Assembly: GCA_021790255.1 (NCBI GenBank)
Contig: JAJYIE010000007.1
Coordinates: 1-46,574, forward strand
DNA length: 46,574 bases
Direction: 5' to 3'
Origin: a bacterium
Lineage (GTDB): Bacteria > Patescibacteriota > Microgenomatia > Daviesbacterales > UBA10151
In this document: in pieces, positions 132 to 39,754 of the stretch
Layout: each line of letters begins with the position of its first letter
Numbering within the stretch: the stretch's first letter is position 1
Translations under genes and position numbers: made by a program
The notes under the pieces: generated by a model
Told to the model about the DNA's origin: nothing
The model's input: only the letters and a program-made list of their open reading frames with translations
The model's database searches: none

Positions 132-161
132 TTGACAAAAAAGACTCATTCTGTGTATATT
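132..161 (+). promoter_or_regulatory. Sigma70-type promoter, near-leaderless
   Basis: TTGACA at 132-137, an 18-base spacer and TATATT at 156-161. The predicted transcription start lies about 5 bases before the ATG at 173 and no Shine-Dalgarno is present, so the mRNA should be almost leaderless. Bases 1-131 hold nothing else I can recognise. Confidence 0.6.
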
Positions 162-172
162 ACACGCACCCC

Positions 173-718
173 ATGTCGAACTCCCGCCGTGGCGACAATT
201 TTGCTCTGAAATGCTTCTTTGATGATTTGTTTGTGATAAACATTAAGCAGCGCAGAACGCATACGGAAATTACTCTTCAGCTTCTTACCGATGATGTTTT
301 AACAGAAAAATTGCCGCAGGTTTCCTCTTTGCTGGAACAATTTATCCCGCAGATTTTTGAGCACAACTGTTTTAACGGCGCCCAGCTCTCCTTTGCCCAG
401 GAGGTTAAGAATACGGAGATAGGCCACCTTTTTGAACATGTTCTTTTGGAGTATATTTCACAAATTAAATTTACCAGGGAGAAAAAGCAGACTGGTTTAA
501 AAGGCGAGACTTACTGGGACTGGAACAGTGAACCCAGGGGAACTTTTCATATCGTCCTCTCTTTAAGTCGGGAAGAATCAGATGTCCTGCTGGAAGCCTT
601 GGGCAAAGGCGTGCATCTTTTAAAGATAATTTTGAACAGTCAAACAGCGCAGCCAGCGCCAAAAAAGGAACTTATCGATACCCTTAAGCGGAATAAGCCT
701 CCTCTTAACGTATTCTAG
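173..718 (+). CDS. Solo domain resembling cyanophycin synthetase N-terminal region
   Basis: A 181-residue soluble protein. Around residues 80-130 it has an IGHLFEHVLLEYI segment followed by a GETYWDWNSEPRGTFHI segment. This order (a His-containing helix of the type GHxxEHxxLE, then a beta strand) resembles the N-terminal domain of cyanophycin synthetase CphA, but no ATP-grasp or Mur-ligase domain follows. The protein stops where the ATP-grasp domain would start. It therefore cannot be a polymer synthetase on its own and may bind a partner or ligand. The start is set by the promoter just upstream. The family assignment comes from motif memory and is moderate; the role is unknown. It precedes an export operon with no clear functional tie. 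Confidence 0.55.
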   Translation: MSNSRRGDNFALKCFFDDLFVINIKQRRTHTEITLQLLTDDVLTEKLPQVSSLLEQFIPQIFEHNCFNGAQLSFAQEVKNTEIGHLFEHVLLEYISQIKFTREKKQTGLKGETYWDWNSEPRGTFHIVLSLSREESDVLLEALGKGVHLLKIILNSQTAQPAPKKELIDTLKRNKPPLNVF

Positions 719-752
719 ATAATTTTGGCTTTCGGTGGTAATCTATGGAGGT

Positions 753-1835
753 ATGAAAAAGATCAGCCTGTTGTTCGGGTTTGTTAAGGCGCATAAGAAA
801 ATTGCGGCGGCGGTTGTCCTGCTGACACTAGTGGTAATTTTTAAACCTTTCGGAATATTGGGTGGAGCAAAAGCTGCATCAAGTTATAAAACGGAAACAG
901 CCAGCAGAAAAGATTTATCAACGGTAATCAATGCCTCAGGCCAGGTGGAAGCAAGTGACAGTGCCACCATGAGTTTTTTAACCACCGGTCGTGTAGTAGC
1001 GCTTAATTTTCAGGAGGGCGATAAGGTAAAAGAGGGGCAGGTAATTGCAGCGTTGGATGAAACTTCGGCCCTGGCGGAAGTGGCTAAGGCGCAGGCTACC
1101 TACCAAAGTGCCCAGGCTGCCTTAAACAAAGTTTTGGATGATATTCATCTTTCTCAATACGGCGCCGGCGGCTTTGCCAATGTCGGATCGGCAAATGAAA
1201 CAGCCACTCAAAAGGCTGACCGGGAGGAAGCAGAAATGACCCGTGATGAGGATTACCAGGCTTTGGTGCAGGCACAAAAAGTGCTTGATTCAGTGACAAT
1301 TATGGCACCATTTGACGGAGTGGTCTCTAACGTTACAGGAATTGCGGTGGGCCAAAATATAAGTGCCATGTCCGGGGCATCAGTGACTGTCATAAACCCC
1401 GATGTCTTAAAGTTTGTCGCCAACGTTGATGAAACCGACTTTGGCCAGCTATCCTCGGGGATGGAAGGCGACGTTTCACTTGATGCTTACCCGGACGAAA
1501 CTTTCAAAGGGACAATCAGCAGAATTGGGGTAGCGGCTGTAAAAATGGATACCGGAGGTTCAGTGGTACCGGTGGATTTGAGCTTACCGTCAGACAGCCG
1601 GATTAAAGATAATCTGACCGGAGAAGCGGACTTTAATGTGACGGCCAAAAAAGGGGTGATCGTTATTTCCCGCTCCACCATCCATAAAAACAACGGCAGC
1701 TTTGTGTACCTTTTAGTAAACGGTAAACCGGTTAGGCGTGAAATAACTGTCGGGGAGACTTTAGGCTCCCAGGCGGAAATAACCGGCGGCTTAAGTGTCG
1801 GTGATCAGGTGATTCTGGGTGATGTAGCGCAATGA
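753..1835 (+). CDS. HlyD/MacA-family efflux adaptor (YknX-like)
   Basis: The membrane-anchored adaptor of a MacAB/YknXYZ-type exporter. Residues about 15-35 form one transmembrane anchor. A biotinyl-lipoyl-like half motif (GRVVALNFQEGDKVKEGQ) follows, then a short coiled-coil hairpin rich in Ala and Gln, the second lipoyl half (MAPFDGVVSNVTG), and a beta-barrel/membrane-proximal part ending in [11 protein letters not shown]. The hairpin is short compared with TolC-dependent MacA, which suits a cell without an outer membrane. It overlaps the ATPase gene by 4 bases (ATGA). An in-frame GTG at 735 is an alternative start: a GATAAT -10 at 718-723 would make it near-leaderless, whereas the GGAGG before the ATG at 753 is only 1 base away. 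The substrate is unknown. Confidence 0.85.
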   Translation: MKKISLLFGFVKAHKKIAAAVVLLTLVVIFKPFGILGGAKAASSYKTETASRKDLSTVINASGQVEASDSATMSFLTTGRVVALNFQEGDKVKEGQVIAALDETSALAEVAKAQATYQSAQAALNKVLDDIHLSQYGAGGFANVGSANETATQKADREEAEMTRDEDYQALVQAQKVLDSVTIMAPFDGVVSNVTGIAVGQNISAMSGASVTVINPDVLKFVANVDETDFGQLSSGMEGDVSLDAYPDETFKGTISRIGVAAVKMDTGGSVVPVDLSLPSDSRIKDNLTGEADFNVTAKKGVIVISRSTIHKNNGSFVYLLVNGKPVRREITVGETLGSQAEITGGLSVGDQVILGDVAQ

Positions 1836-2497
1836 TTTTGTCCGTCCAACATGTCAGCAAAGTCTACAGCTTAGGGGAGGAAGAAGTCCGGGCACTGGAT
1901 GATGTTTCCCTGGAGATTAAAAAGAGTGAATTTGTTTCCATTGTCGGGCCTTCCGGATCCGGCAAGTCAACCCTCATGCATATCATCGGCCTGCTGGATA
2001 GTCCGACTTCAGGTAGGGTGGTTTTGGAAGACCGGGACGTAACAACTCTATCTGAGCAAAAACTGGCCAGGCTGCGCAATGAATATATCGGGTTTGTTTT
2101 TCAGCAGTTTAACCTTCTTTCTAAAACTTCAGCCATCGAAAATGTGGAACTGCCGATGATATACGGAGGAGTGAGTACAAATGAGCGAGAGAAGAGAGCG
2201 GTTGAGATGCTGGAGCTGGTCGGGTTGGGAGAAAGGTTACAGAGCCACCCCAACCAGCTTTCCGGAGGTCAGCAGCAGCGGGTGGCAATTGCCCGGGCGC
2301 TGGTGATGAACCCGGCTATTGTTCTGGCTGACGAGCCGACCGGTAATCTTGACTCTAAAACTGGCGAAGATATTATGGCCTTGTTTCATAAGCTAAACGA
2401 CTCCGGCCACACAATTATTTTGGTAACTCATAACCATGCAGTTGCGGCCCAAGCTCACCGGCAAATTCATATCCAGGACGGAAAGGTGGTGCACTGA
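1832..2497 (+). CDS. MacB/LolD-type ABC transporter ATP-binding protein
   Basis: A 221-residue ABC ATPase of the MacB/LolD/YknY class. Walker A is GPSGSGKST near residue 40, the Q-loop lies in [10 protein letters not shown], the signature is [15 protein letters not shown], Walker B is [13 protein letters not shown], and the switch His is in ILVTHNHAV. The GNLDS ending of Walker B and the [10 protein letters not shown]-loop are typical of this class. It overlaps the adaptor by 4 bases and the permease by 1 base (TGATG), so the three genes are translationally coupled. It should power conformational changes in the FtsX-like permease encoded next. Confidence 0.93.
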
Positions 2498-3724: not shown

Positions 3725-3753
3725 TTGCCGTCATCTAACTGGTGTGGTTTAAT
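3725..3753 (+). promoter_or_regulatory. Extended -10 promoter, near-leaderless
   Basis: TTGCCG at 3725-3730, a 17-base spacer and TTTAAT at 3748-3753 preceded by TGG (extended -10). The -10 ends 9 bases before the ATG at 3763. Confidence 0.5.
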
Positions 3754-3762
3754 TGATTTAGG

Positions 3763-4284
3763 ATGCAGAAGTTCTGGATTCAAACTGCCGGTTTAATTTT
3801 GATAGCTTTTGCCGCCCTTTATTTAACCAAAAACCCGGGTATCATCGGTCCGGTTTTACCCATAGCACCCCAAACTGCCCCCAAAACTGCCGAAGTCAGC
3901 ATAAACGGCGCTGTTGTGAATGCAGAGGTGGCTGATACTCCGCAGACCCGGGCTACGGGACTGAGTGGGCGTGTGTCCTTACCGCAGGATTCAGGAATGC
4001 TGTTTGTCTTTCAACAACCGGGTAAATACCAGTTCTGGATGAAGGGAATGCAGCTTTCCCTGGACTTTATTTTTATAAAAAAAGGCCAGGTTGTCGATTT
4101 GATGCAAAATATTCCACCTCAGCCGGCGAATACGCCTGACTCTCAGCTGCCGGTTTACGAACCGATGTCGGAAATTGATTCAATGCTTGAAGTAAACGGT
4201 GGTTTTGCAGCCAGCCATAATATAGCTGTCGGTGATCAGGTCAGTGTAACCTACAATGCAAGTACTACCACCGGAGTTAATTAG
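3763..4284 (+). CDS. DUF192 family protein, membrane anchored
   Basis: A 173-residue protein with an N-terminal hydrophobic segment (residues 7-22) that acts as a signal or anchor, then a DUF192 domain. Family features visible are ARATGLSGR-like text (TRATGLSGRVSLPQ), an FVFQQPGKYQFWMKGM segment that replaces the usual FxxxxxxxFWMKNT, the LDFIFIKKGQVVDL strand and a final LEVNGGFAASHNIAVGD segment. DUF192 proteins are small beta-barrels of unknown biochemical role, often exported. The 3' end overlaps the next gene by 29 bases in another frame. A second, cytoplasmic-looking DUF192 protein lies at 15988-16341. Confidence 0.85.
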   Translation: MQKFWIQTAGLILIAFAALYLTKNPGIIGPVLPIAPQTAPKTAEVSINGAVVNAEVADTPQTRATGLSGRVSLPQDSGMLFVFQQPGKYQFWMKGMQLSLDFIFIKKGQVVDLMQNIPPQPANTPDSQLPVYEPMSEIDSMLEVNGGFAASHNIAVGDQVSVTYNASTTTGVN

Positions 4285-5725: not shown

Positions 5726-6405
5726 ATTGTTTTCAGGATCAGGTGAAAAAGCATGATGTACTCTCCCTTAGGTGGTTGTTTGGCAAATTGTTTCAGCCAG
5801 ACGGAGATGTTTTTTTGCTCTACAGATTGATAAATCTTGGTTAATTCATGGGCTAAAACAATAGGAATGTCACCGAAAGTTTTCTGCATCTCTGTTAAGG
5901 TTTTAATAAGTTTGTGAGGGGCAACAAAAAGTACGTATGTGGTAGGTTGCAGACTGTGAATTTGGGAAAGTTTTTTCAGTATTTCAGTCCGCTTGCCTGG
6001 TTTTTCCGGAAGGTATCCCAAAAAGAAAAATTTGTCAGGCGGCAGACCGGATAGGGTAAGTGCTGGTACAAAAGATGTTGGGCCTGGGAGAGAGTCAACC
6101 TCAATATGCTGCACTAAACATTCCCTGACCAATTTGTAACCCGGATCAGAGACCAGAGGTGTTCCGGCATCAGAAACCAGTACCAGATTTGAAATTTTTA
6201 ACTTTTCAATAAGCCCCGGAATTTCCCGGTTTTCGTTAAAATCATTTAAAACCAGCAGTGGTTTTGTGATCTGATAATGCTTAAGTAATTGGCCTGTTCT
6301 TCTGGTATCTTCGCAGATGACACCGTCACATGAATGCAACACGTCAATGGCCCGCAAAGTTATGTCTTTTAAATTACCGATAGGAGTTGGTACAATGTAC
6401 AGCAT
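5722..6405 (-). CDS. rsmI: 16S rRNA (cytidine1402-2'-O)-methyltransferase RsmI
   Basis: 227 residues. It starts with MLYIVPTPIGNLKDITLRA, the family signature, and contains CEDTRRTGQLL, LVSDAGTPLVSDPGYKLV and SLPGPTSFVPAL (SAM-binding tetrapyrrole-methylase fold). RsmI methylates the ribose of C1402 of 16S rRNA using SAM and tunes decoding fidelity. The length is slightly shorter than the E. coli protein because the variable C-terminal domain is small. A TATACT hexamer 7 bases before the ATG suggests a leaderless transcript. It converges with and overlaps the preceding gene by 4 bases. Confidence 0.95.
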   Translation of the reverse strand: MLYIVPTPIGNLKDITLRAIDVLHSCDGVICEDTRRTGQLLKHYQITKPLLVLNDFNENREIPGLIEKLKISNLVLVSDAGTPLVSDPGYKLVRECLVQHIEVDSLPGPTSFVPALTLSGLPPDKFFFLGYLPEKPGKRTEILKKLSQIHSLQPTTYVLFVAPHKLIKTLTEMQKTFGDIPIVLAHELTKIYQSVEQKNISVWLKQFAKQPPKGEYIMLFHLILKTI

Positions 6406-6412
6406 GGTATGT

Positions 6413-6418
6413 AGTATA
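6413..6418 (-). promoter_or_regulatory. -10 element of rsmI
   Basis: TATACT on the minus strand, ending 7 bases before the rsmI ATG; no Shine-Dalgarno and no clear -35. Confidence 0.4.
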
Positions 6419-6470
6419 CAGTATTGAAGGGGAAAGGCCTCATATCCCCTACATACTCTAGACTGAACTT

Positions 6471-13498: not shown

Positions 13499-13507
13499 TG
13501 TTATAAT
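13499..13507 (+). promoter_or_regulatory. Extended -10 promoter of uvrB (leaderless)
   Basis: TGT-TATAAT at 13499-13507 is a perfect extended -10. It ends 7 bases before the ATG at 13515, so transcription should start at or next to the start codon. An upstream in-frame ATG at 13506 lies inside the -10 and cannot be translated from this promoter. Confidence 0.65.
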
Positions 13508-13514
13508 GACTTTT

Positions 13515-15479
13515 ATGGCAAAGTTTCAAATCGTTTCCGATTTCAAGCCCACGGGGGATCAGCCGCAAGCTATTGCCCAGCTGGTTAAAGGTCTTGGCCA
13601 AGGTAAAAAACATCAGGTTTTGCTAGGAGTAACCGGTTCGGGAAAAACTTTTACAGTGGCCAATATTATCGAGAAAGTACAACGCCCAACCCTGGTTATT
13701 TCCCACAATAAAACCCTGGCCGGCCAGCTGGCGCAGGAATTCCGTTCTCTCTTCCCACAAAACGCCGTGGAATACTTTGTTTCATATTATGACTATTACC
13801 AGCCTGAGGCTTATATCCCGCAATCGGATACTTATATTGAAAAGGAAACGGAAATAAACGAGGAGATTGAAAAACTGCGCCTCTCAACAACAGCATCCTT
13901 GATGACCCGGCGTGACGTAGTGGTTGTCGCCTCCGTTTCTGCTATTTATAACCTTGGTTCACCTGTTGAATACGGCCAGGCAATTCTGGAGGTTAAGGCA
14001 GGAATGAAAACCCGGTTTGACCAGGTTTTAAAAATCCTCACCAAAATGTATTACGAACGAAATGATGTGGATTTTCACCGCTCGACTTTCCGGGTCAAAG
14101 GCGACACTGTGGATATTTTTCCCTCCTATAAAGAGACTGCCGTGCGCGTGGAATTTTTGGGAGATAAAGTGGAGCGTGTTTCCTTTTTGGACCCCTTGAC
14201 AGGAGAAATGACTCCCACCGAGGAAACCCAGGTAATTTACCCGGCCAAACATTACATTGCTCCCGATCAGCGGATGGAACCGGCTCTGAAGCAGATCCAG
14301 GTTGATTTGACCGATAGAATTAATGAGTTGCGGGCTGCTGGGAAACTGCTTGAGGCGCAAAGGATTGAGCAGCGGACTTATTACGACCTGGAGATGATTA
14401 AGGAGTTTGGATATTGCAACGGCATTGAAAATTACTCCCGCTATTTTGACGGACGTGAGCCCGGAGAACCGCCGTATGCACTTCTAAATTACTTTCCGGA
14501 AGATTTTCTGGTAATAATTGACGAATCACACATCAGCCTACCACAGATCCGGGGTATGTATAACGGCGACCGCTCTCGCAAGGAAACCTTAATTGACTTC
14601 GGATTCCGCCTGCCTTCAGCACTGGATAACCGGCCGCTTAGATTTGATGAATTTATGCGCAGTGTTAACCAGATAATTTATACCTCCGCTACCCCTGATG
14701 AGTATGAAATATCGCTTGCAGGATCTGATGGATTGGCACAGCAGCTGTTGCGTCCGACAGGGATTTTAGACCCGGAAATTGATGTCCGTCCGACTGTGGG
14801 CCAAATTGATGACCTGATCAGGGAAATTGAGGCTCGGGTGAAAAAAGGAGAGAGGTGCCTCGTGATAACTTTGACCAAACGGATGGCGGAGGACCTGACT
14901 GAATATCTGCAGGAAAAAGATGTGAAAGTCAATTATCTACACTCGGATGTAGAAACTCTGAAACGCAGCGATATTTTGCAGTCTTTAAGATTGGGGGAAT
15001 ACGACGTGATTGTTGGGATCAACTTATTGCGAGAGGGACTGGATTTACCTGAGGTGTCTTTGGTGGCAATTTTGGATGCCGACAAGGAAGGATTTTTGCG
15101 CTCAAAAACATCGCTGATTCAAACCATGGGCCGAGCGGCCCGCCATATCAGAGGAAAGGTTATTATGTATGCAGATACTGTAACCGGCTCGATGCGGGAG
15201 GCAATCGAAGAGGTGGAGCGCCGGAGAAAATATCAGGATGAGTATAATAAAAAGCACGGGAAAAATCCTACGGCTATTACCAAGCCGCTGCGGGAACGGC
15301 TGATTGAGAAAGTGGAGGAGGAAACCGGGGAGAAGGTTTTAACCATTGACGATATCCCTGTTTCCGAACGCGAGAAGATGATCAAACTCCTGGAAGCACA
15401 AATGCAGGAAGCAGCTAAACTGCTCGATTTTGAAGAAGCCGCCAGGATGCGTGATCAGATTAAACAGCTGCGGGATTAG
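13515..15479 (+). CDS. uvrB: UvrABC system protein B
   Basis: 654 residues. The canonical UvrB start (MAKFQIVSDFKPTGDQPQAI) follows the leaderless promoter. Walker A GVTGSGKT is at residues 38-45, the beta-hairpin region YYDYYQPEAYIPQSDTYIEK follows, the DEAD-like box is IIDESH, helicase motifs V/VI are in VGINLLREGLDLPEV and QTMGRAARH, and the UVR motif closes the protein (LLDFEEAARMRDQIKQL). UvrB verifies damage after loading by UvrA and recruits UvrC. uvrA and uvrC are downstream on the same strand. Confidence 0.98.
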   Translation: MAKFQIVSDFKPTGDQPQAIAQLVKGLGQGKKHQVLLGVTGSGKTFTVANIIEKVQRPTLVISHNKTLAGQLAQEFRSLFPQNAVEYFVSYYDYYQPEAYIPQSDTYIEKETEINEEIEKLRLSTTASLMTRRDVVVVASVSAIYNLGSPVEYGQAILEVKAGMKTRFDQVLKILTKMYYERNDVDFHRSTFRVKGDTVDIFPSYKETAVRVEFLGDKVERVSFLDPLTGEMTPTEETQVIYPAKHYIAPDQRMEPALKQIQVDLTDRINELRAAGKLLEAQRIEQRTYYDLEMIKEFGYCNGIENYSRYFDGREPGEPPYALLNYFPEDFLVIIDESHISLPQIRGMYNGDRSRKETLIDFGFRLPSALDNRPLRFDEFMRSVNQIIYTSATPDEYEISLAGSDGLAQQLLRPTGILDPEIDVRPTVGQIDDLIREIEARVKKGERCLVITLTKRMAEDLTEYLQEKDVKVNYLHSDVETLKRSDILQSLRLGEYDVIVGINLLREGLDLPEVSLVAILDADKEGFLRSKTSLIQTMGRAARHIRGKVIMYADTVTGSMREAIEEVERRRKYQDEYNKKHGKNPTAITKPLRERLIEKVEEETGEKVLTIDDIPVSEREKMIKLLEAQMQEAAKLLDFEEAARMRDQIKQLRD

Positions 15480-16356: not shown

Positions 16357-16411
16357 GGTTAGAATAGGACGTTTCTTTGGCTACTTGATTCGGGTCATAT
16401 TTGGTTAGAAT
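16357..16411. repeat. GGTTAGAAT direct repeat before uvrA
   Basis: The nonamer GGTTAGAAT occurs at 16357-16365 and 16403-16411, 46 bases apart, in the uvrA upstream region. Both contain TAGAAT and may be alternative -10 elements or protein-binding half sites. Confidence 0.3.
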
Positions 16412-16419
16412 GTTATCAT
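16411..16419 (+). promoter_or_regulatory. Extended -10 promoter of uvrA
   Basis: TGT-TATCAT ends 12 bases before the uvrA ATG at 16432; no Shine-Dalgarno follows. Confidence 0.4.
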
Positions 16420-16431
16420 GAACGAAACGAT

Positions 16432-19335
16432 ATGAGTAACGATAAAATAGTTATCCGCGGGGCGCGTGAGCATAATCTAAAAGACATTGACCTGGAAATT
16501 CCTAAGAATAAGTTAGTTGTTCTGACAGGCATTTCTGGTTCCGGAAAATCTTCTCTGGCTTTTGACACCCTTTATGCTGAAGGGCAACGGCGCTACGTGG
16601 AATCACTTTCTTCTTATGCCAGACAGTTTCTGGGAGTAATGGACAAGCCGGATGTGGATTTAATTGAAGGGCTTTCTCCTGCTATATCCATTGACCAAAA
16701 GAGCGCTTCCCACAATCCACGCTCTACTGTGGGAACCACGACGGAGATCTACGATTACCTGCGTCTGCTTTACGCCCGGATTGGCCATCCTCATTGCCCA
16801 ATTTGCGGCGGAGAAGTGGCTAGGCTTAGCGTGGACCAAATCGTGGATAAGGTCAAAGGTCAAAGGTCAAAGGTCAAAAGCAACGAAGGAAGAATTATGA
16901 TTTTGGCGCCGGTCGTAAAAGACAGGAAAGGTGAGTATTCCAGCTTGTTTGAAGATCTGCGCAGAAAAGGCTTTTCCAAGGTCCGGGTTGATAAGCAGGT
17001 TAGGGATTTAAGTGAAGATTTGGTGCTGATTAAAACCAATAAGCACACAATTGATGTGGTGGTGGATAGGTTGGTTCTGGATAAAAAAAGCCTAGCAGAT
17101 GAAAAAATACTTTCCCGGCTGCACCAAAGTATCGAGACAGCTTTGAAGATGGGTGAGGGGATGGTTATCGTCAGTGACGTTTTGGACAAATCCCTTGAGT
17201 TCCCGCCAACTCCTAAAAAAACGGAAGATCACCTTTATTCAGAAAGGTTTGCCTGTCCTGTGGACAACATTTCTTTGCCGGAAATTGAGCCGCGGACATT
17301 TTCATTTAATTCACCGCACGGCGCCTGTCCTAATTGTACCGGGCTTGGAGTTTTGCTCAAAATCGATGCCGAGGCAATCATAAACCCGATTCTTTCCATC
17401 GCGGAAGGCGGAATTTTACCTTGGTCAGGTTTGGGGGAGTCAGATACATGGTTTAAGCGGCTGATTGAAGCTGTGGGGAAAGAGAAAGGTTTTGATATAA
17501 ATACCCGTTTGGGCCAGTTGTCTCCGGAAGCAAAGAATCTCCTCCTTTACGGCGCAGATAATGAGCAGTTTCGGGTGGAAGGAAGAAACCGGGAGGGGCA
17601 CTGGACGCATTTTTATACTACATTTGAAGGGCTGGTGCCCGGTTTGGAGAAAAGATACAAGGAAACCGAATCTGAATATGTCAAAAAGGAAATTGAAAAA
17701 TATATGACGGAAGAAATCTGCCCGGTTTGCCACGGGGCCAGATTAAAACCGGAAGCGCTTTCGGTAAGTGTTGAGGGAGTTAACATCTCTGAGGCCACCA
17801 GCCAGTCGATCAGAGCCGCCCTGGAGTGGTTAAAGACGCTGGTGAAACCTGTTTTATCACAGCGGGAGGAAATAATAGCTGCGCCGATTTTGAAAGAGAT
17901 TAAAGCCAGGCTGCAATTTTTGGTTGACGTGGGGTTGGATTACCTAACGCTGGACCGAGCATCGGCAACACTGGCTGGCGGAGAAGCCCAACGGATTCGC
18001 CTTGCTTCCCAGATCGGCTCAGGGTTGTCCGGTGTTCTTTACGTATTGGATGAGCCGTCAATCGGCCTGCATCAGCGGGATAACAGCCGGCTTATTGAAA
18101 CCTTAAAGAGGCTGCGGGATTTGGGTAATACCGTGGTGGTGGTGGAACATGACCAGGAAACAATGGAAAGCGCTGACTGGATCGTTGATTTTGGCCCCGG
18201 AGCCGGAGAGCATGGCGGGAATGTGGTAGCTTCAGGCAGCCTGGAGGATATTATTAATAACCCAAATTCTTTGACCGGAAAGTACTTGTCAGGCAAAAGA
18301 CAGGTGCAGTCTGATGGACAACTTCGCAGGCCGTATGTTAATGTCGGCACCCTGAAAGTAGTTGGCGCCGCCGAGCATAACCTGAAGAATATTGATGTGG
18401 AGTTTCCTTTGGGCCAGTTTATCGCCGTTACCGGAGTTTCTGGTTCCGGTAAATCTACTTTAATTAATGATATTTTATACCGCGCTCTGGCCCAAAAAAT
18501 TTATCGGACGCGGGAAAAACCGGGGCGTTTTAAGGATCTGGAAGGGCTGCAATACGTCGATAAGGTGGTGCTGGTTGACCAGTCACCGATCGGACGGACT
18601 CCCCGATCAAACCCGGCCACTTACACCGGAGCATTTACTTTTATCCGTGACTTGTTTGCCAGTTCACCGGATGCTAAAGTGCGCGGATACGGGCCGGGGC
18701 GGTTTAGTTTTAACGTCAAAGGCGGACGTTGTGAAGTTTGCGAGGGTGAAGGCCAAATTAAAATTGAAATGCAGTTTTTGCCGGATGTATACGTGACATG
18801 TGAAGCCTGCAGCGGGAAAAGATATAACCGGGAAGCTTTGGAGATACATTTTAAAGATAAAAACATCGCCGAAGTTTTGGAAATGACGGTGGAGGAGTCG
18901 TTGGAATTTTTCAGCAACATCCCACAGATAAAAAGGAAGCTTGAGGTTTTGAATGAAGTCGGCCTGGGCTATATCCGGCTTGGCCAACCGGCCCCTACCT
19001 TATCGGGCGGAGAAGCCCAGCGCATTAAGCTGGCCTCTGAGCTGTCCAAGCGCCCAACTGGCCACACTTTCTACATTCTTGACGAGCCAACTACCGGTTT
19101 GCACTTTGCCGACATCGAAAGGCTGCTGACTATTTTGCGAAAGCTTGTCAACTTCGGCAATACAGTGGTTATAATTGAGCACAACCTGGACGTGATTAAA
19201 AACACGGATTGGATTATCGACCTGGGGCCTGAGGGAGGGGAAGGCGGTGGAAAAGTTGTTGCAACCGGCACACCGAAGGACCTGGTTGCTAATAAATCTT
19301 CAGTAACGGGCCAGTACCTGGCTAAAGTGTTATAA
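16432..19335 (+). CDS. uvrA: UvrABC system protein A
   Basis: 967 residues, normal length. There are two ABC modules: the first Walker A is GISGSGKS (residues 33-40), the second GVSGSGKST near 665. Signatures [18 protein letters not shown] and [18 protein letters not shown] and Walker [16 protein letters not shown] and [15 protein letters not shown] are intact. The C-terminal zinc hook (CEVCEGEG, then [10 protein letters not shown]) has four Cys. In the first zinc module the usual CPxC pair reads CPVD, so one Cys is replaced, while CPNC is kept. Four GGTCAAA units sit in the reading frame near residues 140-149. UvrA is the damage sensor that loads UvrB. Confidence 0.98.
16851..16878 (+). repeat. 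4x GGTCAAA tandem repeat inside uvrA
   Basis: Four perfect copies of the heptamer GGTCAAA followed by AG. The unit is not a multiple of three, so the repeat is read in three frames and encodes a basic Lys/Gly/Gln/Arg/Ser stretch in the insertion between the first zinc Cys pair and the UvrB-binding region. Gain or loss of one unit would frameshift uvrA. Confidence 0.9.
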
Positions 19336-23243: not shown

Positions 23244-23250
23244 ATAGTTT

Positions 23251-23466
23251 ATGAATACAGTACTGGAGATTACTCAGATTATTTTAGCAATACTTTTGAT
23301 AGTCTTGATCCTGATGCAGTCTAAAGGGACAGGACTGGGAACGGCTTTCGGAGGGGAGATCGGTTTTTACTCTACTAAACGCGGATTTGAGAAGATTCTT
23401 TTCGATCTGACGATCCTCATTTCTGCCCTGTTTATTGTACTTTCAGCACTAAGGCTGATTTTGTGA
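23251..23466 (+). CDS. secG: Protein translocase subunit SecG
   Basis: 71 residues with two transmembrane helices (residues 5-20 and 52-70). The loop LMQSKGTGLGTAFGGEIGFYSTKRGFEKIL carries the SecG hallmark (Q-x-x-KGxGLGxxFGG, then a basic segment). SecG is the small accessory subunit of the SecYEG channel. Its last codons overlap the next gene's GTG start by 4 bases, which suggests coupling to the solute-binding protein gene. Confidence 0.93.
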   Translation: MNTVLEITQIILAILLIVLILMQSKGTGLGTAFGGEIGFYSTKRGFEKILFDLTILISALFIVLSALRLIL

Positions 23467-25045: not shown

Positions 25046-25078
25046 CAATAAAATTAAATTTTGCCTACCCGAACAAAT

Positions 25079-27073
25079 ATGGCAGAAAAAAAAGATTTAT
25101 CGGGTTTATTGCAGAATGCTGAGGCTGCGGCCATTCAGGGGCAAGAAATGGCCCAGCAGAAACCTTTCTCCTTCAGTGAGTATTTAAATATTGTCGGCCA
25201 AAATCCTCTGGTAGCAAGCACTGCTCATGCCCGTGTCTATAACATGATCCTTCGTGAGGGTATCCAGCAAGGCCAGGACGGCCAGCCGAACCGATACCAA
25301 TTCTTTAGCAAAGAACTGTTTGGTTTAGAGAAAGTATTTCAGCAGCTTACTGAGGAATATTACTTACCGGCTGCCAGAAGGTTGGATGTCCGCAAAAGAA
25401 TCCTCATGCTGGTTGGCCCCGTCGGAGGCGGAAAATCCACTATAGCTACTTTGTTAAAAAGGGGCCTTGAGCAATACAGCCGGACGCAAGAGGGTGCAAT
25501 GTATGCTATTGACGGCTGTCCTATGTTTGAAGAGCCCTTGCATTTGATTCCTGAGGTAAACCGCCCGGATTTTCAAAGGGTACTCGGTGTACCGATTGAA
25601 GGGGATCTGTGTCCTTCATGTGAGTGGCGGATGGAACATGAATGGAGGGGAAATATTAGTGAGGTTGCGGTCAGACGGATGCTTTTCTCCGAAAAAAACC
25701 GGGTGGGAATTGGCACTTTTAAGCCAGCTGACCCCAAATCCCAGGATGTGGCTGAGTTAACAGGCCATGTTAACTTAAGCGCACTGGTTGATCAAAAATT
25801 TAACGGTGAATCTGATCCCCGGGCTTACCGCTTTGACGGAGAGCTTAATGTGGCCAACCGGGGGCTGATTGAATTTATTGAGATGCTGAAAATGGAGCCT
25901 CGGTTTCTTTATGAATTAAATACTGTAGCGGGTGAACGGAAAATTAAAGTTCCCTCCTTTGCACTGGTTGATGTTGATTTGTCGGTGCTTTCCCATACGA
26001 ACGAGTTTGAATACAAAAAATATTTTGCCGATCCGGCTAATGAGGCAATGGTAGACCGGATTTTTGTAGTCAAGGTCCCCTACAATATGCGGGTGAGTGA
26101 TGAAGTGAGAATTTACCGAAAACTGATTGACCAGGCCAGGCTCGGATCGTCCGGAGCGGATAGCCCGGTAAAAGACCTGGGCAATGTCCATATTGCCCCA
26201 CAAACTTTAGAGGTAGCCAGTCAGCTGGCTGTCCTCTCACGTATTAAGCCATCTGCCCGTCCCAACCTCAGCCCAATTGCCAAATTAAAGCTTTATGACG
26301 GTGAGCAAAAGGTGGGGGAATGGGAGCAGAAACATTTGAAGGAAATTGAGGAGGAAGGGGTGGCGAATCATGAGGGAATGGAAGGACTTTCCCCGCGCTT
26401 TATCATGAACCGCCTTGCCCAGGCACTGGCTTCAGGAAGAGATTGCGTTAATCCGCTGGATACTATAAGGTCGCTGCGGGATGGTATTAAAGAGCAGCAC
26501 GGCGGTGATCCAAAAGAAGCGGAAAGGATGCTCAGCTTGCTGGATCAGGTGCGCCTGGAATATGACGGAGATGTCAAGAAACGGGTTCAGCGGGCTTTTG
26601 TTTATGCATATGACGAATCAACAAGAACACTCCTGGACAATTATTTGAAAAACGCCGACGCTTTTTGCAACAAGAATAAAATTAATGACCCGATTACCGG
26701 TGACGAGGTTGATCCCGATGAGAGGTTGATGTGCTCTATTGAGGAGCAGATGGGTGTGGCAGGAGATTCACGAAAAAAGGAATTTCGGGAAGGTGTTATG
26801 CGCTCAGTAGCAAGCTGCGCCATGCGCGGGCAGCCGTTTACCCTTTCTTCTAACAACTCACTGCAGGAAGCAATCGAAAAGAAGTTGTTTTCTGACTTAA
26901 AGGATGTGGTCAAGGTAACTACTACCACTAGAACTCCTGATGCTGAGCAGCAAAAAAGAATTGACGCGGTCCGGGCTACCTTAACTGATCCGGGACTACC
27001 GGACAATGAGCGGTATTGCGACCATTGCGCTGGAGAGTTGCTCAAATACGCTGGGCAACTTATTAACCGGTAA
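25079..27073 (+). CDS. PrkA/YeaG-type serine protein kinase
   Basis: 664 residues from ATG 25079; an in-frame TTG at 25061 is less likely. The AAA-like PrkA N-terminal domain has Walker A GPVGGGKST at residues 113-121. A CPMFEEPLHLIPE segment, a Cys pair in GDLCPSCEW and the YRFDGELNVANRGLIEFIEM segment are all family signatures. The C-terminal half carries the PrkA kinase-like domain. The E. coli homologue YeaG (644 residues) is a Ser/Thr kinase induced in stationary phase and nitrogen stress. It is the first gene of a three-gene operon with DUF444 and SpoVR genes. In CPR cells with few signalling proteins, this operon is likely a central stress switch. Confidence 0.95.
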   Translation: MAEKKDLSGLLQNAEAAAIQGQEMAQQKPFSFSEYLNIVGQNPLVASTAHARVYNMILREGIQQGQDGQPNRYQFFSKELFGLEKVFQQLTEEYYLPAARRLDVRKRILMLVGPVGGGKSTIATLLKRGLEQYSRTQEGAMYAIDGCPMFEEPLHLIPEVNRPDFQRVLGVPIEGDLCPSCEWRMEHEWRGNISEVAVRRMLFSEKNRVGIGTFKPADPKSQDVAELTGHVNLSALVDQKFNGESDPRAYRFDGELNVANRGLIEFIEMLKMEPRFLYELNTVAGERKIKVPSFALVDVDLSVLSHTNEFEYKKYFADPANEAMVDRIFVVKVPYNMRVSDEVRIYRKLIDQARLGSSGADSPVKDLGNVHIAPQTLEVASQLAVLSRIKPSARPNLSPIAKLKLYDGEQKVGEWEQKHLKEIEEEGVANHEGMEGLSPRFIMNRLAQALASGRDCVNPLDTIRSLRDGIKEQHGGDPKEAERMLSLLDQVRLEYDGDVKKRVQRAFVYAYDESTRTLLDNYLKNADAFCNKNKINDPITGDEVDPDERLMCSIEEQMGVAGDSRKKEFREGVMRSVASCAMRGQPFTLSSNNSLQEAIEKKLFSDLKDVVKVTTTTRTPDAEQQKRIDAVRATLTDPGLPDNERYCDHCAGELLKYAGQLINR

Positions 27074-27082
27074 AGCCGCTCT

Positions 27083-28300
27083 ATGAATGAAAAAGATACG
27101 ACTTTTAGATTTTTTATAAACGCAGAGCCGTGGGATTTGCACAGCGGTCGGGCTCGGCGGGATATCGCCCGGCACGATCAAAGGGTCCGGGAAACTCTCA
27201 GAGGCAACCTTTCGGATATAGTAAGCAACGAAGATATCGTGACCTCCGACGGCCAGAAAATAATCAGAGTTCCCATCAGGGGATTAGAGTTGCCTCGTTT
27301 CCGGTTTGATCCCTACGATGAGAAGCATTACGGTCAGGGTAATGAAGGTACCAAGGATAACGGGCAAACCCAGCCGGGAACAATCTTGGGTAAGACGGGT
27401 GAAGGATCGGGTAATCAGGCCGGACACGAGCCGGGAACGGATGTGTATGAGGCTGAATTTACAGTTGACGATATTTTAGAGATGATGTTTGAAGACCTGG
27501 CTCTCCCTGATATAGAGGAGAGAGGCAGGGATCAGCTGGTTAAGTCATCCCTGGAGTATACAACTGTCCGTAAAACCGGCCCCTGGGCAAACTTAGATTC
27601 CAGGCGAACCTTAATAGAGGCTTATAAACGAAACGCCAAGATGGGTAAACCCGGTTGGGATATTGACGAGACACAAGACCTCCGTTTTAAAAGCTGGGAA
27701 GAGAAGCTGGATCCTCAAACTAACGCCGTGATTTTCGCCATGCGTGATGTTTCCGGTAGTATGGGCGACCACGAAGCCTACCTGGCACGGACCTTTTTTA
27801 CTTGGATGGTTCGCTTTCTGAGGAAGCAATATTCGGGTGTGGATATTGCTTTTATCACCTGTCACACTGAGGCTCAGGAGGTTGATGAGCAAACTTTTTT
27901 CCATCTCTCAGGGTCAGGCGGAACAAGGATGGGTTCTGCGTACCAAAAAGCGCTGGAAATCATAGATAACAGATACAATCCTTCTTCATGGAATATTTAT
28001 CCCTACCTTTTTTCCGACGGCTATAACTGGGATGATGAGGCTTGTGTTCTGTTAGTAAAGAAGCTTTTGGATGTCAGCAACCAGGTGGGTTACGGAGAGG
28101 TCAACCATTACGGCCACTGGGATGGCGATCATTCCTTCGGCCAAGACGGACAAAGCTGGGCTCCACTCGGGGCTTTATACGACCGCACTTTCCGGTCCGA
28201 TGAACGTTTTGTGATGTCGCAGTTTGGTGCAAAAGAAGATGTTTGGCCCGGCCTTAAACAATTTTTAAGAAAGCGCCATGAGGTGTTGGCAACGGCATGA
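27083..28300 (+). CDS. DUF444 / YeaH-family von Willebrand factor A protein
   Basis: 405 residues. The N-terminus FINAEPWDLHSGRARRDIARHD resembles the YeaH start. A low-complexity Gly/Thr linker (residues 84-120) precedes VDDILEMMFEDLALPD, another family block. The VWA domain carries the MIDAS motif DVSGSM at residue 222 and the downstream SGSGGTRMGSAY loop. YeaH is the conserved partner of the kinase YeaG. The gene starts 10 bases after prkA and overlaps spoVR by 4 bases. It probably bridges the kinase and its targets through metal-dependent binding; this is inferred from VWA biology. Confidence 0.94.
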   Translation: MNEKDTTFRFFINAEPWDLHSGRARRDIARHDQRVRETLRGNLSDIVSNEDIVTSDGQKIIRVPIRGLELPRFRFDPYDEKHYGQGNEGTKDNGQTQPGTILGKTGEGSGNQAGHEPGTDVYEAEFTVDDILEMMFEDLALPDIEERGRDQLVKSSLEYTTVRKTGPWANLDSRRTLIEAYKRNAKMGKPGWDIDETQDLRFKSWEEKLDPQTNAVIFAMRDVSGSMGDHEAYLARTFFTWMVRFLRKQYSGVDIAFITCHTEAQEVDEQTFFHLSGSGGTRMGSAYQKALEIIDNRYNPSSWNIYPYLFSDGYNWDDEACVLLVKKLLDVSNQVGYGEVNHYGHWDGDHSFGQDGQSWAPLGALYDRTFRSDERFVMSQFGAKEDVWPGLKQFLRKRHEVLATA

Positions 28301-29754
28301 GAGCAGAAGATAAAGCCCAACTAGAAGATGTTGCCGGGGTAATGGGCGAGGTAGCCGGACAATTAGGTCTGCAGCCTCCGGCGGTCAGTTTCGATGTTGT
28401 CCCGGCAGAGGTTATGTATGAAATAGCAGCTTATCATTTTCCTGACCGTTTTCCCCACTGGACCCACGGGCAGTCCTATCATCGCCAGAAGACCGGATAT
28501 GACCACGGTTTGCAGAGAATTTACGAATTGGTAGTCAACACCGAGCCTTGCCATGCGTATTTGATGGAAACAAACAGCCTGACTTCCCAAAAGTTGGTTA
28601 TCGCCCATGTTTTAGGTCACGCAGATTTTTTCCGGCGTAATGTTTTTTTCAGTAAGAGCAACCGGTTCATGCACACCGCTGCCGCAGCGCACGCAGAGGC
28701 AATCAATAAAATAGAAAAAGAGCACGGGTTGGAAAAAGTAGAACAAACGCTTGATGCAGCCCTGGCCCTGGCTATGCATGTTGATCCGGCCCGGGAATTT
28801 TTCCGGCAAAAATCCATGGCTGAGTACGAAGAAGAGCGCCTGCGGCCACCTGATGAGCCGACTATGGACTATGATGATATATGGTTTATGCAGGGTAAGC
28901 CACGCAAAACCCCCGACCGCCGGCGAAAAATCCCGCCAGAACCTGAAAGGGATTTACTGAGATTTTTAGGCGAGTCTTCTTCTATATTGGATGAATGGCA
29001 GCGGGATGTTTTGGCTATGGTGGGGGAAGAATACCGTTATTTTTATCCGAATATGCGCACAAAAATTATGAATGAGGGATATGCCGCTTTTTGGCATGAA
29101 AGGATTATGGAACATCCAAACACCAGGCTTTCCCCGGATGAGCTTATTGAATTCCAGCAAATGCATTCTTCCGTGATCAGCCAGGGTCACACATTTGCCC
29201 TAAATCCCTACGGAGTTGGTTATAAAGTTTGGAAGGATATTGAAAAGCGCTGGGAGGAGCCGGAGGAAGAAAAAACATGGTATGGCGAAAGTACTAAAAG
29301 GGCAGGAGGTGAGGGATTAAAAAAGGTTTTTGAGGTTGCAGCAGATTACCGGGATAGCGAATTTTTGCGCTTATTTTTAACGGAGCCATTGGTAGAAGAA
29401 CTGGATCTTTATGAGTACAAATTTGAAGGTGATAAACAAAAGAGGCAGGGAAACTGGGTAGTACAACAGGCGCCCTGGGAGGAGCTTCGTGATGGTTTGG
29501 CTAACCATCTGATGGGGTTGGAAGTGCCGGCTATCGCTGTGGTGGACGGGGATTTTGAGGGAAGAAACGAGTTACTTTTATCCCATGATGCGGGAAGTGA
29601 CCTTGTCCCATTGGATTTTGACTACGCCAGAAGGACGCTGGGGTTGATCCACAGTCTGTGGGGCAAGCCCGTGCATCTGGACACAATTAAAGATGATAAA
29701 CACCTCAGGCTGACTTGTAACGACGGTAAAGCAGTAGATGTAAAACCCTTCTAA
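28297..29754 (+). CDS. SpoVR / YcgB family protein
   Basis: 485 residues, close to E. coli YcgB (510). The family blocks are clear: DVVPAEVMYEIAAYHFPDRF, HWTHGQSYHRQK, NSLTSQKLVIAHVLGHADFF, FYPNMRTKIMNEGYAAFWHE and INPYGVG-type text (FALNPYGVGYKVWKDIEKRW). The conserved His and Glu residues suggest metal binding, but no activity is established. SpoVR is needed for spore cortex formation in Bacillus and is a stress gene in enterics. It is translationally coupled to DUF444 by an ATGA overlap, completing the kinase/VWA/SpoVR triad. Confidence 0.95.
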   Translation: MRAEDKAQLEDVAGVMGEVAGQLGLQPPAVSFDVVPAEVMYEIAAYHFPDRFPHWTHGQSYHRQKTGYDHGLQRIYELVVNTEPCHAYLMETNSLTSQKLVIAHVLGHADFFRRNVFFSKSNRFMHTAAAAHAEAINKIEKEHGLEKVEQTLDAALALAMHVDPAREFFRQKSMAEYEEERLRPPDEPTMDYDDIWFMQGKPRKTPDRRRKIPPEPERDLLRFLGESSSILDEWQRDVLAMVGEEYRYFYPNMRTKIMNEGYAAFWHERIMEHPNTRLSPDELIEFQQMHSSVISQGHTFALNPYGVGYKVWKDIEKRWEEPEEEKTWYGESTKRAGGEGLKKVFEVAADYRDSEFLRLFLTEPLVEELDLYEYKFEGDKQKRQGNWVVQQAPWEELRDGLANHLMGLEVPAIAVVDGDFEGRNELLLSHDAGSDLVPLDFDYARRTLGLIHSLWGKPVHLDTIKDDKHLRLTCNDGKAVDVKPF

Positions 29755-30384: not shown

Positions 30385-30393
30385 TGGTAAAAT
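30385..30393 (+). promoter_or_regulatory. Extended -10 promoter of yvcK-like gene
   Basis: TGG-TAAAAT ends 10 bases before the ATG at 30404; no Shine-Dalgarno. Confidence 0.45.
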
Positions 30394-30403
30394 TGTTTTC
30401 ACA

Positions 30404-31498
30404 ATGAATGCTGAGATTCCTAAATTTGTAATTATCGGTGGGGGAAAGGGCCCCAGTGCTGTTAGGAGAGGCTTGAAAGAGCTCCCTATCCATATCACCT
30501 CGATTGTACCATCCGCTGATTCAGGGGGTAGCACAGGTAAACTCAGACGAGACTATGACGTTTTGAGTATGGGGGACCTGACGCAGGCTTGGGGAGATCA
30601 CGCCATAGACCCGGACGATGGTGAATTCTTGCATTTTCGTTTTCCGAAAGGGGAGGGCATAAACGGACACCGTAATTCCAACTTGGGGTTTTTAGTGGCG
30701 ATGGAAGTATTCCGCGATAAAGCTCTCAAAGAAAACTGGCCAGTCGATCAAATTAATAATGATCATCTGGTGGCAAAAGTTCTTGACTACCACCGCAGGA
30801 AATATCCAATTACCGGGAATGTTGTACCGAGTACTGCTGAGAATAATCTTGACCTGATTACAATTTTAACTGACGGAACCAGATTAGCGCAGGAACATTT
30901 ACTTGATTTTCGAGACGGAGGGGTGCCTATTTCCAAAGTTGAGCTATCCAAAGAAGCCATCATTTACCCGGAAGCAAAAATTGAACTGGAAGGGACCGAT
31001 GCCTGCATTTACGGCTCAAGCAGCCTCAGAGGAAGCATAGAAGCAGTTTTAGCTGTCCAGGGTGTCCCGGAGGCTATCCGAAGGGGAAGGTCGCTTCAGA
31101 TTATGGTCCAAAATATCGCAAACTGGAAAGGGGATACGGCGGGTTTTAAAACTTCCGATTATGCCCGGGTTATCACCGATTGGACTGGAATTCCAATTGA
31201 TTACCTGGTTTATTTTAAAGATAGCCAGACCAATATTGATCCGGAGATTATTAAAGACTACGAAAAGGAAGGACAGGAAATTGTTGAGCTGGACGATAAA
31301 ACCCTACTGTATGTCAGGCAGGTCCGGTGCTTTGATTTAATTAAAGTGGTTGAGGAAGGTAACAACGGTGAAAGAAAATTTGTGCTTCGCCATGATCCCC
31401 AAAAAGTCGGCCGGGCTTTAATGTCGGTCTGGGAAGAACACCTGGCTAAAATAGATTTAAGCAGACTCCGGATTACTCCCTCTGAAATTTATAGTTAA
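30404..31498 (+). CDS. YvcK/CofD-like gluconeogenesis factor (UPF0052)
   Basis: 364 residues. The YvcK/CofD signature is present: IIGGGKGPSAVRRGLKELP, then IVPSADSGGSTGKLRRDYDVLSMGDL, and a GSSSLRGSIEAVLAVQGVPEAI segment that matches the GxSSLxTSxxPxLLxxGI block. YvcK binds UDP-sugars and coordinates carbon metabolism with peptidoglycan synthesis and cell shape. Its 3' end overlaps the convergent PAP2 gene by 42 bases. Confidence 0.9.
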   Translation: MNAEIPKFVIIGGGKGPSAVRRGLKELPIHITSIVPSADSGGSTGKLRRDYDVLSMGDLTQAWGDHAIDPDDGEFLHFRFPKGEGINGHRNSNLGFLVAMEVFRDKALKENWPVDQINNDHLVAKVLDYHRRKYPITGNVVPSTAENNLDLITILTDGTRLAQEHLLDFRDGGVPISKVELSKEAIIYPEAKIELEGTDACIYGSSSLRGSIEAVLAVQGVPEAIRRGRSLQIMVQNIANWKGDTAGFKTSDYARVITDWTGIPIDYLVYFKDSQTNIDPEIIKDYEKEGQEIVELDDKTLLYVRQVRCFDLIKVVEEGNNGERKFVLRHDPQKVGRALMSVWEEHLAKIDLSRLRITPSEIYS

Positions 31499-32128
31499 GG
31501 CGGGCAGGAGTCCTAAGGATATTCCAAGAAGTAGTCCGCCCAAGACATCCGACGCCCAATGCTCCCCCAGATAAATCCTGGAAATTAAAGTCAGCAGTAA
31601 TACTACCACCAGAATAATTTGGCAAAAGGTTCTATGTAAGATGTTTTTTGCCGAAATGTAAGAAAGTAAAAAAGTGATCAAAAATGAAGCCCGGAAAACG
31701 TGACCGGAAGGATAAGAGGATGTTGTTTGCACAAAGCTGCTGGGCAGGTCAAAATGGATAACACCGCGGTATAAAAGATGCGGAGGTGCAGGGTGGTAAA
31801 TGAACAGCTTACCAAAGAATTCCGCCAGAGTCCCGGCAAAATAAAGAAATAAGCAAAGAGCCGTCAGGTAAAGTTTTTGCCGGGCAAGCAGCAGGACAAT
31901 AACCAGCCAGAAAAATCCCGCCATTTCCGCGGATGCCAGGATGGAGAACATGGAAAAAGGCAAATCTACCAGATGCGGCAGGTGATTTTGCAGTCGGACC
32001 GTAGTATCAAAATCGATATTCGTAAAGTAGTGCTCGGCAACAAAAAGCGAAAAAACGAGGAAAGAGAGCAGCAAGAGTGCCGAAGCCAGTAATATTTTTA
32101 AATTTGGAGAAAATTTTCGTTGGAGCAT
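31457..32128 (-). CDS. PAP2-family membrane phosphatase
   Basis: 223 residues with six hydrophobic helices. The PAP2 catalytic motifs are KLFIYHPAP (motif 1, with HP in place of the usual RP), YPSGH (residues 139-143, catalytic His143) and SRIYLGEHWASDVLGG (residues 183-198, nucleophile His190). It dephosphorylates lipid phosphates such as undecaprenyl pyrophosphate or phosphatidate at the outer face of the membrane. The start is supported by TGG-TAGAGT on the minus strand ending 11 bases before the ATG. Confidence 0.9.
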   Translation of the reverse strand: MLQRKFSPNLKILLASALLLLSFLVFSLFVAEHYFTNIDFDTTVRLQNHLPHLVDLPFSMFSILASAEMAGFFWLVIVLLLARQKLYLTALCLFLYFAGTLAEFFGKLFIYHPAPPHLLYRGVIHFDLPSSFVQTTSSYPSGHVFRASFLITFLLSYISAKNILHRTFCQIILVVVLLLTLISRIYLGEHWASDVLGGLLLGISLGLLPALTINFRGSNPESA

Positions 32129-32139
32129 TAAGCAACTCT

Positions 32140-32148
32140 ACTCTACCA
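32140..32148 (-). promoter_or_regulatory. Extended -10 promoter of PAP2 gene
   Basis: Minus-strand TGG-TAGAGT, 11 bases before the ATG at 32128. Confidence 0.4.
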
Positions 32149-37594: not shown

Positions 37595-37600
37595 TATAAT
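37595..37600 (+). promoter_or_regulatory. -10 element of ABC exporter operon
   Basis: A perfect TATAAT ends 6 bases before the ATG at 37607, again predicting a leaderless mRNA; the in-frame TTG at 37589 lies upstream of the start of transcription. Confidence 0.55.
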
Positions 37601-37606
37601 AATTTG

Positions 37607-38410
37607 ATGGATAGTAATATTGTTGCAGTCACTGATCTTGTAAAAAAATATGGTGATCTTTTGGCGGTAAACAATATCTCCTTTGATGTTAAAAAGGGAG
37701 AAATATTTGCGTTCCTCGGCCCCAATGGCGCCGGTAAAACTACGACCATTAAAATGTTGACCACACTGCTGCAGCCGACCGACGGTCGCATCCTTTTGAA
37801 TGGAATTGACCCGGTGGTTGATTCCCATAAAGCCCGTCAAACATTTGGTATTGTTTTTCAGGACCCTAGCCTGGACGATGAGTTGACAGCCTGGGAAAAT
37901 CTGGAATTTCATGGTGTTTTATACGGAGTTCCTGCCTCTGTACGCCACTCACGGATTGAGGAACTGCTGAAATTTGTGGAATTGTGGGAGCGCAAAGACC
38001 ACCTGGTTAAAACTTTTTCCGGGGGGATGAAAAGAAGATTGGAAATTGCCCGGGGGCTGCTGCACCATCCGAAAATTTTCTTCCTGGATGAGCCGACCCA
38101 GGGGCTAGATCCACAAACCCGCAACGGCATCTGGAATTACATTAAAAATTTGAATAAAGAAGAGGGGATAACGATCTTTTTTACCACACATTATATGGAG
38201 GAAGCGGAAAAGGTGGCACAGCGGGTGGCGGTTATTGACCACGGCCGGATTGTTGCAAAAGGCAGCCCTGAGGAGCTAAAAAAACAAACCGGCAAAGATT
38301 CATTGGAAGATGCCTTTTTGTCTTTGACCGGACATGCAATCAGGGATGAGGAGGCGGGTGCAATCGACAGAATGAGAATGCACCGCGGTATGTGGGGAGG
38401 AAGACACTGA
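37607..38410 (+). CDS. ABC-2 type transporter ATP-binding protein (DrrA-like)
   Basis: 267 residues. Walker A is GPNGAGKTT, the Q-loop lies in GIVFQDPSLDDELTAWENL, the signature is TFSGGMKRRLEIARGLLHHP, Walker B is IFFLDEPTQGLDPQTR and the switch region is FFTTHYMEEAE. The SGGMKRRLEIAR form and the DPSLDDELT text are typical of DrrA/NodI-type exporters. It overlaps the permease by 1 base (TGATG). The cargo could be a drug, lipid or polysaccharide. Confidence 0.93.
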   Translation: MDSNIVAVTDLVKKYGDLLAVNNISFDVKKGEIFAFLGPNGAGKTTTIKMLTTLLQPTDGRILLNGIDPVVDSHKARQTFGIVFQDPSLDDELTAWENLEFHGVLYGVPASVRHSRIEELLKFVELWERKDHLVKTFSGGMKRRLEIARGLLHHPKIFFLDEPTQGLDPQTRNGIWNYIKNLNKEEGITIFFTTHYMEEAEKVAQRVAVIDHGRIVAKGSPEELKKQTGKDSLEDAFLSLTGHAIRDEEAGAIDRMRMHRGMWGGRH

Positions 38411-39153: not shown

Positions 39154-39387
39154 CAGGGAATATTCTCATTATATGCTTCTATTTCCACCAGTTCTAAACC
39201 AAGGATTAAGGCAATTGAAATTACCAGGCCTGACGTTAAGGATATTGACCTGGCCGGTATGGCTGCCTTTGTCTGGGGTAAGAGATAAGATGATAAAGAA
39301 AGAATAGATCTGCATCAGGAGACAGTAAAGGCCTTAAAAGAGTACTTGAAGATCAACAAAAAACCGGAGGCGAATTCTTGTGATTAA
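39154..39387 (+). pseudogene. Tyrosine recombinase (integrase) fragment
   Basis: In one frame the translation reads KAIEITRPDVKDIDLAGMAAFVWGK, a stop (TAA at 39286-39288), then DDKERIDLHQETVKALKEYL. This matches the part of XerC/D-type recombinases from the L-R-x-E-L helix region to the GKGxKER-x-x-PLH-x-x-x-xxALxxYL block. The N-terminal domain and the C-terminal HxxR/Tyr box are absent. It lies right at the border between ordinary chromosomal genes and the accessory region and is best read as an old integration scar. Confidence 0.6.
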
Positions 39388-39484
39388 GCGTTAGCGAATA
39401 TCCTAAACATTAAGACTTAGGGTTTTTAATGAAAAAATTTTATGATTTTGGACTGATTAAAAAAGAAAAAAGAAAGGAAAAAAT

Positions 39485-39739
39485 TTAAGAAAATTTTTTA
39501 TTTAGATGAAGGATAACTTTTTTCTGAATGACATGAAAGTTTTTCAGGAAAAGATAAGCAAGGAAAATAGAAAAGAAATAAACAACATACATCGCTGTGT
39601 TGTCACCTATAGGTTCTAAAGGACCTCGTAAATGGGTAGCACGTAAAAAAATGATTAAAACAATTGAAATGGCATAGAAGGGAATATATCCCAAAATTAA
39701 GGAAATTATGACGAAAAACAGAGTTTTAAGAAAAGACAT
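39485..39739 (-). CDS. Small two- or three-helix membrane protein
   Basis: 84 residues with helices near residues 4-32 and 48-66 and a basic C-terminus (KKVILHLNKKFS). It has a perfect extended -10 (TGG-TATAAT) ending 6 bases before the ATG, so it is a real, leaderless gene even in the accessory zone. It is divergent from the gene at 39779. No domain is recognised. Confidence 0.6.
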   Translation of the reverse strand: MSFLKTLFFVIISLILGYIPFYAISIVLIIFLRATHLRGPLEPIGDNTAMYVVYFFSIFLAYLFLKNFHVIQKKVILHLNKKFS

Positions 39740-39745
39740 AGACGA

Positions 39746-39754
39746 ATTATACCA
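39746..39754 (-). promoter_or_regulatory. Extended -10 promoter, leaderless
   Basis: Minus-strand TGG-TATAAT, 6 bases before the ATG at 39739. Confidence 0.55.

Follow-up and report, generated by a model that had tools for sequence, protein, structure and literature searches.

Introduction

Leaderless initiation is a known, less common route by which protein synthesis starts in bacteria. Zheng et al. 2011 (PMC3160421) surveyed 953 bacterial genomes with a -10-like TANNNT signature and dinucleotide shuffles. Most of the leaderless genes they detected were in Actinobacteria and Deinococcus-Thermus; further groups included Aquificae, Chloroflexi, Firmicutes and Proteobacteria. For GeneMarkS-2 (Lomsadze et al. 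2018), the account given in PMC9581028 states that leaderless transcription was predicted in 21.6% of bacterial species and for up to 40% of transcripts. In Mycobacterium, bacterial leaderless mRNAs have been demonstrated experimentally, according to PMC4633059. The table of Nakagawa et al. 2017 (PMC5397173) contains no candidate phylum. Our literature search for leaderless genes in Patescibacteria (CPR), which covered a minority of subscription journals and no bioRxiv preprints, found no paper; this silence is weak evidence that such genes are new.

A very large part of bacterial diversity belongs to the Patescibacteria, of which few members are cultivated. What is assumed about their gene starts, promoters and operons rests largely on software tuned to Shine-Dalgarno (SD) sites. 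Here, we analyse a stretch of 46,574 bp from a probable member of this phylum (the window), together with its genome and its relatives.

The genes described below resemble the TA-led genes of PMC3160421, in which a -10-like TANNNT lies about 10–12 bp upstream of the start: a -10-like box lies some 6–9 bases upstream of the start codon (about 12 when counted from its first T), more often than expected from shuffled DNA. Unlike in TA-led genes, the hexamer is a near-full TATAAT accompanied by TGN and a -35 element, and the groups treated in PMC3160421 include no Patescibacteria. As in the bacterial leaderless class of GeneMarkS-2 outlined in PMC9581028, leaderless and SD genes are mixed within one genome. 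The Mycobacterium work reported in PMC4633059 draws on RNA and ribosome data, whereas the leaderless genes described here are predicted from sequence. They represent an unusually broad case of the already known bacterial leaderless genes.

Materials and Methods

The window comprises bases 1–46574 of one contig. The whole genome has 941 kb in 45 contigs and is estimated to be 91.6% complete; about 0.5 Mb of it was used for the genome-wide test. Genes were called with a 3-periodic coding model that is blind to upstream signals. A gene was considered a first gene if it was divergent or if over 80 bp separated it from a co-directional gene upstream. The gap is the number of bases between the last base of the -10 hexamer and the start codon, and a TATAAT-like box was allowed at most one mismatch, with A2 and T6 retained. 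Dinucleotide shuffles of the upstream DNA served as the null set, and 1925 internal in-frame ATGs as decoys. For control, 200 kb of E. coli K-12 were subjected to the identical procedure.

An EM model that distinguished three classes of start was initialised from a weak -10 seed, a weak SD seed and flat distances, and contained no -35 element. Its mixture fractions were rejected as estimates of leaderless use: the model assigned 61% to the leaderless class in genome G000, yet also 31% in E. coli. Because a free mixture absorbs noise, the shuffle-corrected excess was used instead; for each genome it was determined with a box model trained elsewhere, on a different genome, while the shuffles were made from the upstream DNA under test, and five genomes were pooled. 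Spread was measured by counting TGNTATAAT followed by ATG after 5–8 bases, with a distance of 15–18 bases as control. A plain TATAAT-to-ATG count, compared with the reversed pattern, was too noisy since the genomes are A/T-rich, and was replaced by this extended -10 count with its shifted-distance control. The phylum is represented in the genome collection by 380 genomes of 0.4–2.0 Mb from more than 150 families, a profile that in our judgement fits Patescibacteria and no other phylum.

Results and Discussion

-10 boxes in the window

All twelve -10 hexamers that the preliminary description had listed, and their spacings to the start codon, are present in the window as claimed, and no obvious SD site was seen upstream of the twelve genes. 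Nine of the boxes are good -10 matches with gaps of 6–10. On the plus strand, these are TGT-TATAAT (gap 7; 13499–13517) before uvrB, which starts at 13515; TGC-TACAAT (gap 8; 19470–19489) before a transglutaminase-like secreted protein with start 19487 rather than TTG 19409; TATAAT (gap 9; 21376–21393) before uvrC, start 21391; TGA-TACTAT (gap 6; 22804–22821) before the GTG start 22819; TATAAT (gap 7; 23238–23253) before a short gene, start 23251; TGG-TAAAAT (gap 10; 30385–30406) before the start at 30404; and TATAAT (gap 6; 37595–37609) before an ABC transporter ATPase with start 37607 rather than TTG 37589. On the minus strand, TATACT (gap 7) precedes an rsmI-like gene with start 6405, and TGG-TATAAT (gap 6; 39737–39754) precedes an 84-residue ORF with start 39739, which the coding model does not call as a gene.

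The remaining three boxes are weak. TGG-TTTAAT before the start at 3763 (gap 9; 3739–3765, plus strand) has no key A2, and TGG-TAGAGT before the start at 32128 (minus strand; 32126–32148) has a gap of 11. In the case of uvrA (start 16432), TGT-TATCAT (16411–16434, plus strand) has a gap of 12, which is too long for a strictly leaderless start, so that a leader of several bases would remain.

Two further boxes had been overlooked. The plus-strand gene at 6471 is preceded by TAGACT (gap 6), which shares the 65-bp divergent intergenic region 6405–6470 with the box of the rsmI-like gene, so that this region carries two opposed predicted leaderless promoters, one on each strand. The plus-strand gene at 173 has a TTGACA -35 at 132–137 and a TATATT -10 with a gap of 11 (132–175); a very short leader or a leaderless start is probable here. 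The designation of all these genes as first genes is loose: uvrC lies 14–35 bp, and the genes at 3763, 22819 and 23251 lie 30–69 bp, behind a co-directional gene. Elsewhere in the window, three adjacent genes at 25061–29754, judging by their translations, appear to resemble the group formed by PrkA kinase, YeaH and SpoVR.

Distance between box and start codon

The genome-wide histogram of -10-to-start distances has a peak at gaps of 6–9, in excess of the shuffles, which is the outcome that the preliminary description had named as confirming. First genes carry 19, 9, 8 and 11 boxes at gaps of 6, 7, 8 and 9, respectively, and 1–5 at each of the other gaps up to 24. A box at a gap of 5–12 is found in 60 of 219 first genes, while shuffles yield 14.8 ± 3.6 with a maximum of 26 (z = 12.6). 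For gaps of 6–9 the numbers are 47 versus 7.5 (z = 14.9), and for boxes at this distance that also have the TGN extension, 23 versus 0.9. Where only one start is plausible, the box precedes 16 of 44 genes, compared to 47 of the 1925 internal in-frame ATGs (2.4%; p = 3e-14). In E. coli K-12, 4 of 97 first genes have it (4.1%), which is not above the upstream background of that genome.

It is very likely that in many genes a sigma70-type promoter places the start of transcription on the start codon, and that the resulting leaderless mRNA is translated as such. The promoter would consist of a TTGACA-like -35, a spacer of 17–18 bp, often an extended TGN, and a TATAAT-like -10. RNA polymerase would begin at the first base of the start codon, an A (or G), and produce an mRNA having neither a 5' untranslated region nor an SD site, whose 5'-terminal AUG would be recognised by the ribosome and the initiator tRNA. 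SD sites would serve a minority of genes, most of them in downstream operon positions.

It is very unlikely that the mRNAs generally have very short leaders of 2–8 bases instead of being strictly leaderless, a distinction to which the ribosome would be largely indifferent, as it handles both much alike. Gaps of 9–12 do exist, for example at 16432 and 32128, and could correspond to leaders of 1–6 bases; however, the modal gap in the EM model is 6–7, in agreement with the usual distance between -10 and +1.

Promoter elements

In the window genome, the EM model converged on TGnTAaAAT (consensus TGnTAnAAT) at gaps of 6–9. Similar boxes were obtained for the family member G214 and for the phylum members G041 and G032. 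With E. coli, the -10 seed was lost during the fit and the distances were dispersed. The signal in the class member G402, a weaker and more diffuse box at gaps of 5–9 plus gap 0, weighs against the leaderless reading.

When upstream DNA was aligned on the boxes, a TTG(A) hexamer, which is a TTGACA-like -35, appeared at a spacer of 17–18 in the tested genomes, most weakly in G402. As the EM model never examined the position of this hexamer, the -35 is the result that is most independent of the choice of start. A pyrimidine precedes 71% of the leaderless-class starts and 50% of the SD-class starts (p = 3e-7), and TTG is very rare among leaderless-class starts (4/474 versus 14/312), which would follow from transcription initiating there on a purine; since the start classes were assigned by the same EM model, both results are supportive and not independent of start choice. 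With a -35 at 17 ± 1 and an initiator signature both found, the boxes are best described as putative promoters of the sigma70 type, with transcription predicted to start at the A of the ATG.

The same elements bear on the idea that the TATAAT-like sequence is a translational signal, namely an A/U-rich enhancer or a non-canonical ribosome site as in Bacteroidetes, and not a promoter. Its fixed distance to the start codon and its occurrence before closely packed downstream genes are consistent with such a role. In contrast, a -35 at a spacer of 17–18 and an extended TGN are hallmarks of sigma70 promoters, and the pyrimidine at -1 is in keeping with an initiator of transcription; a translational signal is therefore highly unlikely. 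For the promoter reading, the identity of the elements, their fixed spacing, the excess over chance, the conservation and the phylum-wide spread are apparent at the level of sequence; the precise position of the transcription start, and translation by the leaderless route, would follow by analogy with work on other bacteria.

Conservation in orthologous genes

For uvrB, 26 readable orthologs from the family and the class, including the copy in the window, were compared. In a similarity search with uvrB, the best 80 matches came from other phyla, apart from one Kerfeldbacteria record. A box with at most one mismatch lies at a gap of 6–9 before the homologous start in 21 of them, whereas uvrB loci from mostly unrelated bacteria have a box at a gap of 5–12 in 5 of 44 cases (the Fisher test for this contrast entered 20 of 26 and is slightly conservative). 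The -10 box includes the alternative ATG at 13506, which favours 13515 as start, and the orthologs begin at the same residue as the protein started at 13515. Of the start codons that the preliminary description had relocated, that of uvrB is thus supported (13515, not 13506); for 19487, 21391 and 37607 the relocation is likely.

Conservation is less complete for rsmI, in which part of the orthologs retain the box. Most uvrC orthologs start 21 codons further in, and about half of these have a -10 box at a gap of 6–10 at that position. The window copy uses an earlier ATG with TATAAT at a gap of 9, and the copy of a relative (L241) uses a third start position with its own box at a gap of 6. The box of uvrC shifts together with the start codon, which indicates that the promoter follows the start codon.

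Compared with the start of most relatives, the segment 21391–21453 of uvrC adds about 21 residues at the N-terminus. The motif TTCGGGTNNTNTTTGG occurs upstream of lexA at 7802 (minus strand), uvrB at about 13475 (plus strand, partial) and uvrA at 16389 (plus strand); within the family, many uvrB orthologs have a similar sequence upstream. It is a candidate LexA/SOS operator, which would overlap the predicted leaderless promoters.

Spread through class and phylum

The extended -10 is found at the leaderless distance 1009 times in the class, compared to 223 times at the shifted distance, and the excess is observed in 55 of 58 genomes. For the phylum the numbers are 2260 and 583, with an excess in 128 of 143 genomes. 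Counts vary widely from family to family: two genomes of the same genus (g119) have 147 and 124 matches, and some genomes have 0 or 1.

The shuffles, the decoys, these shifted-distance controls and E. coli exclude for the set as a whole that chance matches in A/T-rich upstream DNA were picked by eye, a reading of negligible probability. In its favour are the frequency of -10-like hexamers upstream of first genes (about 7% per 8 positions) and the weakness of three boxes among the twelve listed. Single genes such as the one at 32128 may represent a chance match.

Extent of predicted leaderless and Shine-Dalgarno use

The excess of boxes over shuffles amounts to 26–35% of first genes, 31–48% of genes 26–80 bp behind a co-directional neighbour, and 14–23% of genes within 25 bp of their upstream neighbour, all of which are lower bounds, as the T/A content of the boxes themselves survives shuffling; the same estimate yields about 1% for E. 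coli. Leaderless architecture hence extends beyond first genes into apparent operons. The preliminary description had regarded leaderless initiation as the default for first genes. That such an architecture is widespread has strong support from the distance histogram, the comparisons with shuffles, decoys and E. coli, the -35 and initiator elements, ortholog conservation and the enrichment across the phylum; to call it the default is too strong, as the excess accounts for about one quarter to one third of first genes as a lower bound.

It had further been stated that genes inside operons keep strong SD sites, which is true in part. SD-like pentamers show a modest enrichment in closely packed genes: 18% of those within 25 bp of the upstream neighbour contain one, compared to 8% of the decoys (p = 0.001). 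Of these closely packed genes, 14% have their own -10 box at leaderless distance (z = 6.7). Among all first genes pooled, leaderless or otherwise, SD-like pentamers occur in 12%, versus 8% of the decoys. In genome G032 (L154–L163, L232), the EM start model found no SD-like motif, SD-like pentamers of closely packed genes are at the decoy level, and the 16S tail carries CCTCC.

It is conceivable, and we propose it tentatively, that leaderless initiation is ancestral, phylum-wide and quantitatively major in Patescibacteria, that it is used in co-directional runs as well as in first genes, and that SD use is nearly gone in some lineages (G032) despite an intact 16S anti-SD. A phylum-wide leaderless signature, if true, would correct start positions, as for uvrB here, would break up many apparent operons into independently transcribed units, and would bear on the question which initiation mode is older in bacteria. 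The analysis also yields a promoter model that is testable in a cultivated member of the Patescibacteria.

The 16S gene is absent from the assembly of the window genome. In the relatives examined, the anti-SD is intact, which rules out its loss as the cause of leaderless use and means that the SD route is still usable. In the relatives G176 and G214 (L235, L236), the matches to 16S rRNA span 1.8 and 2.2 kb, respectively, probably as a result of insertions within the gene.
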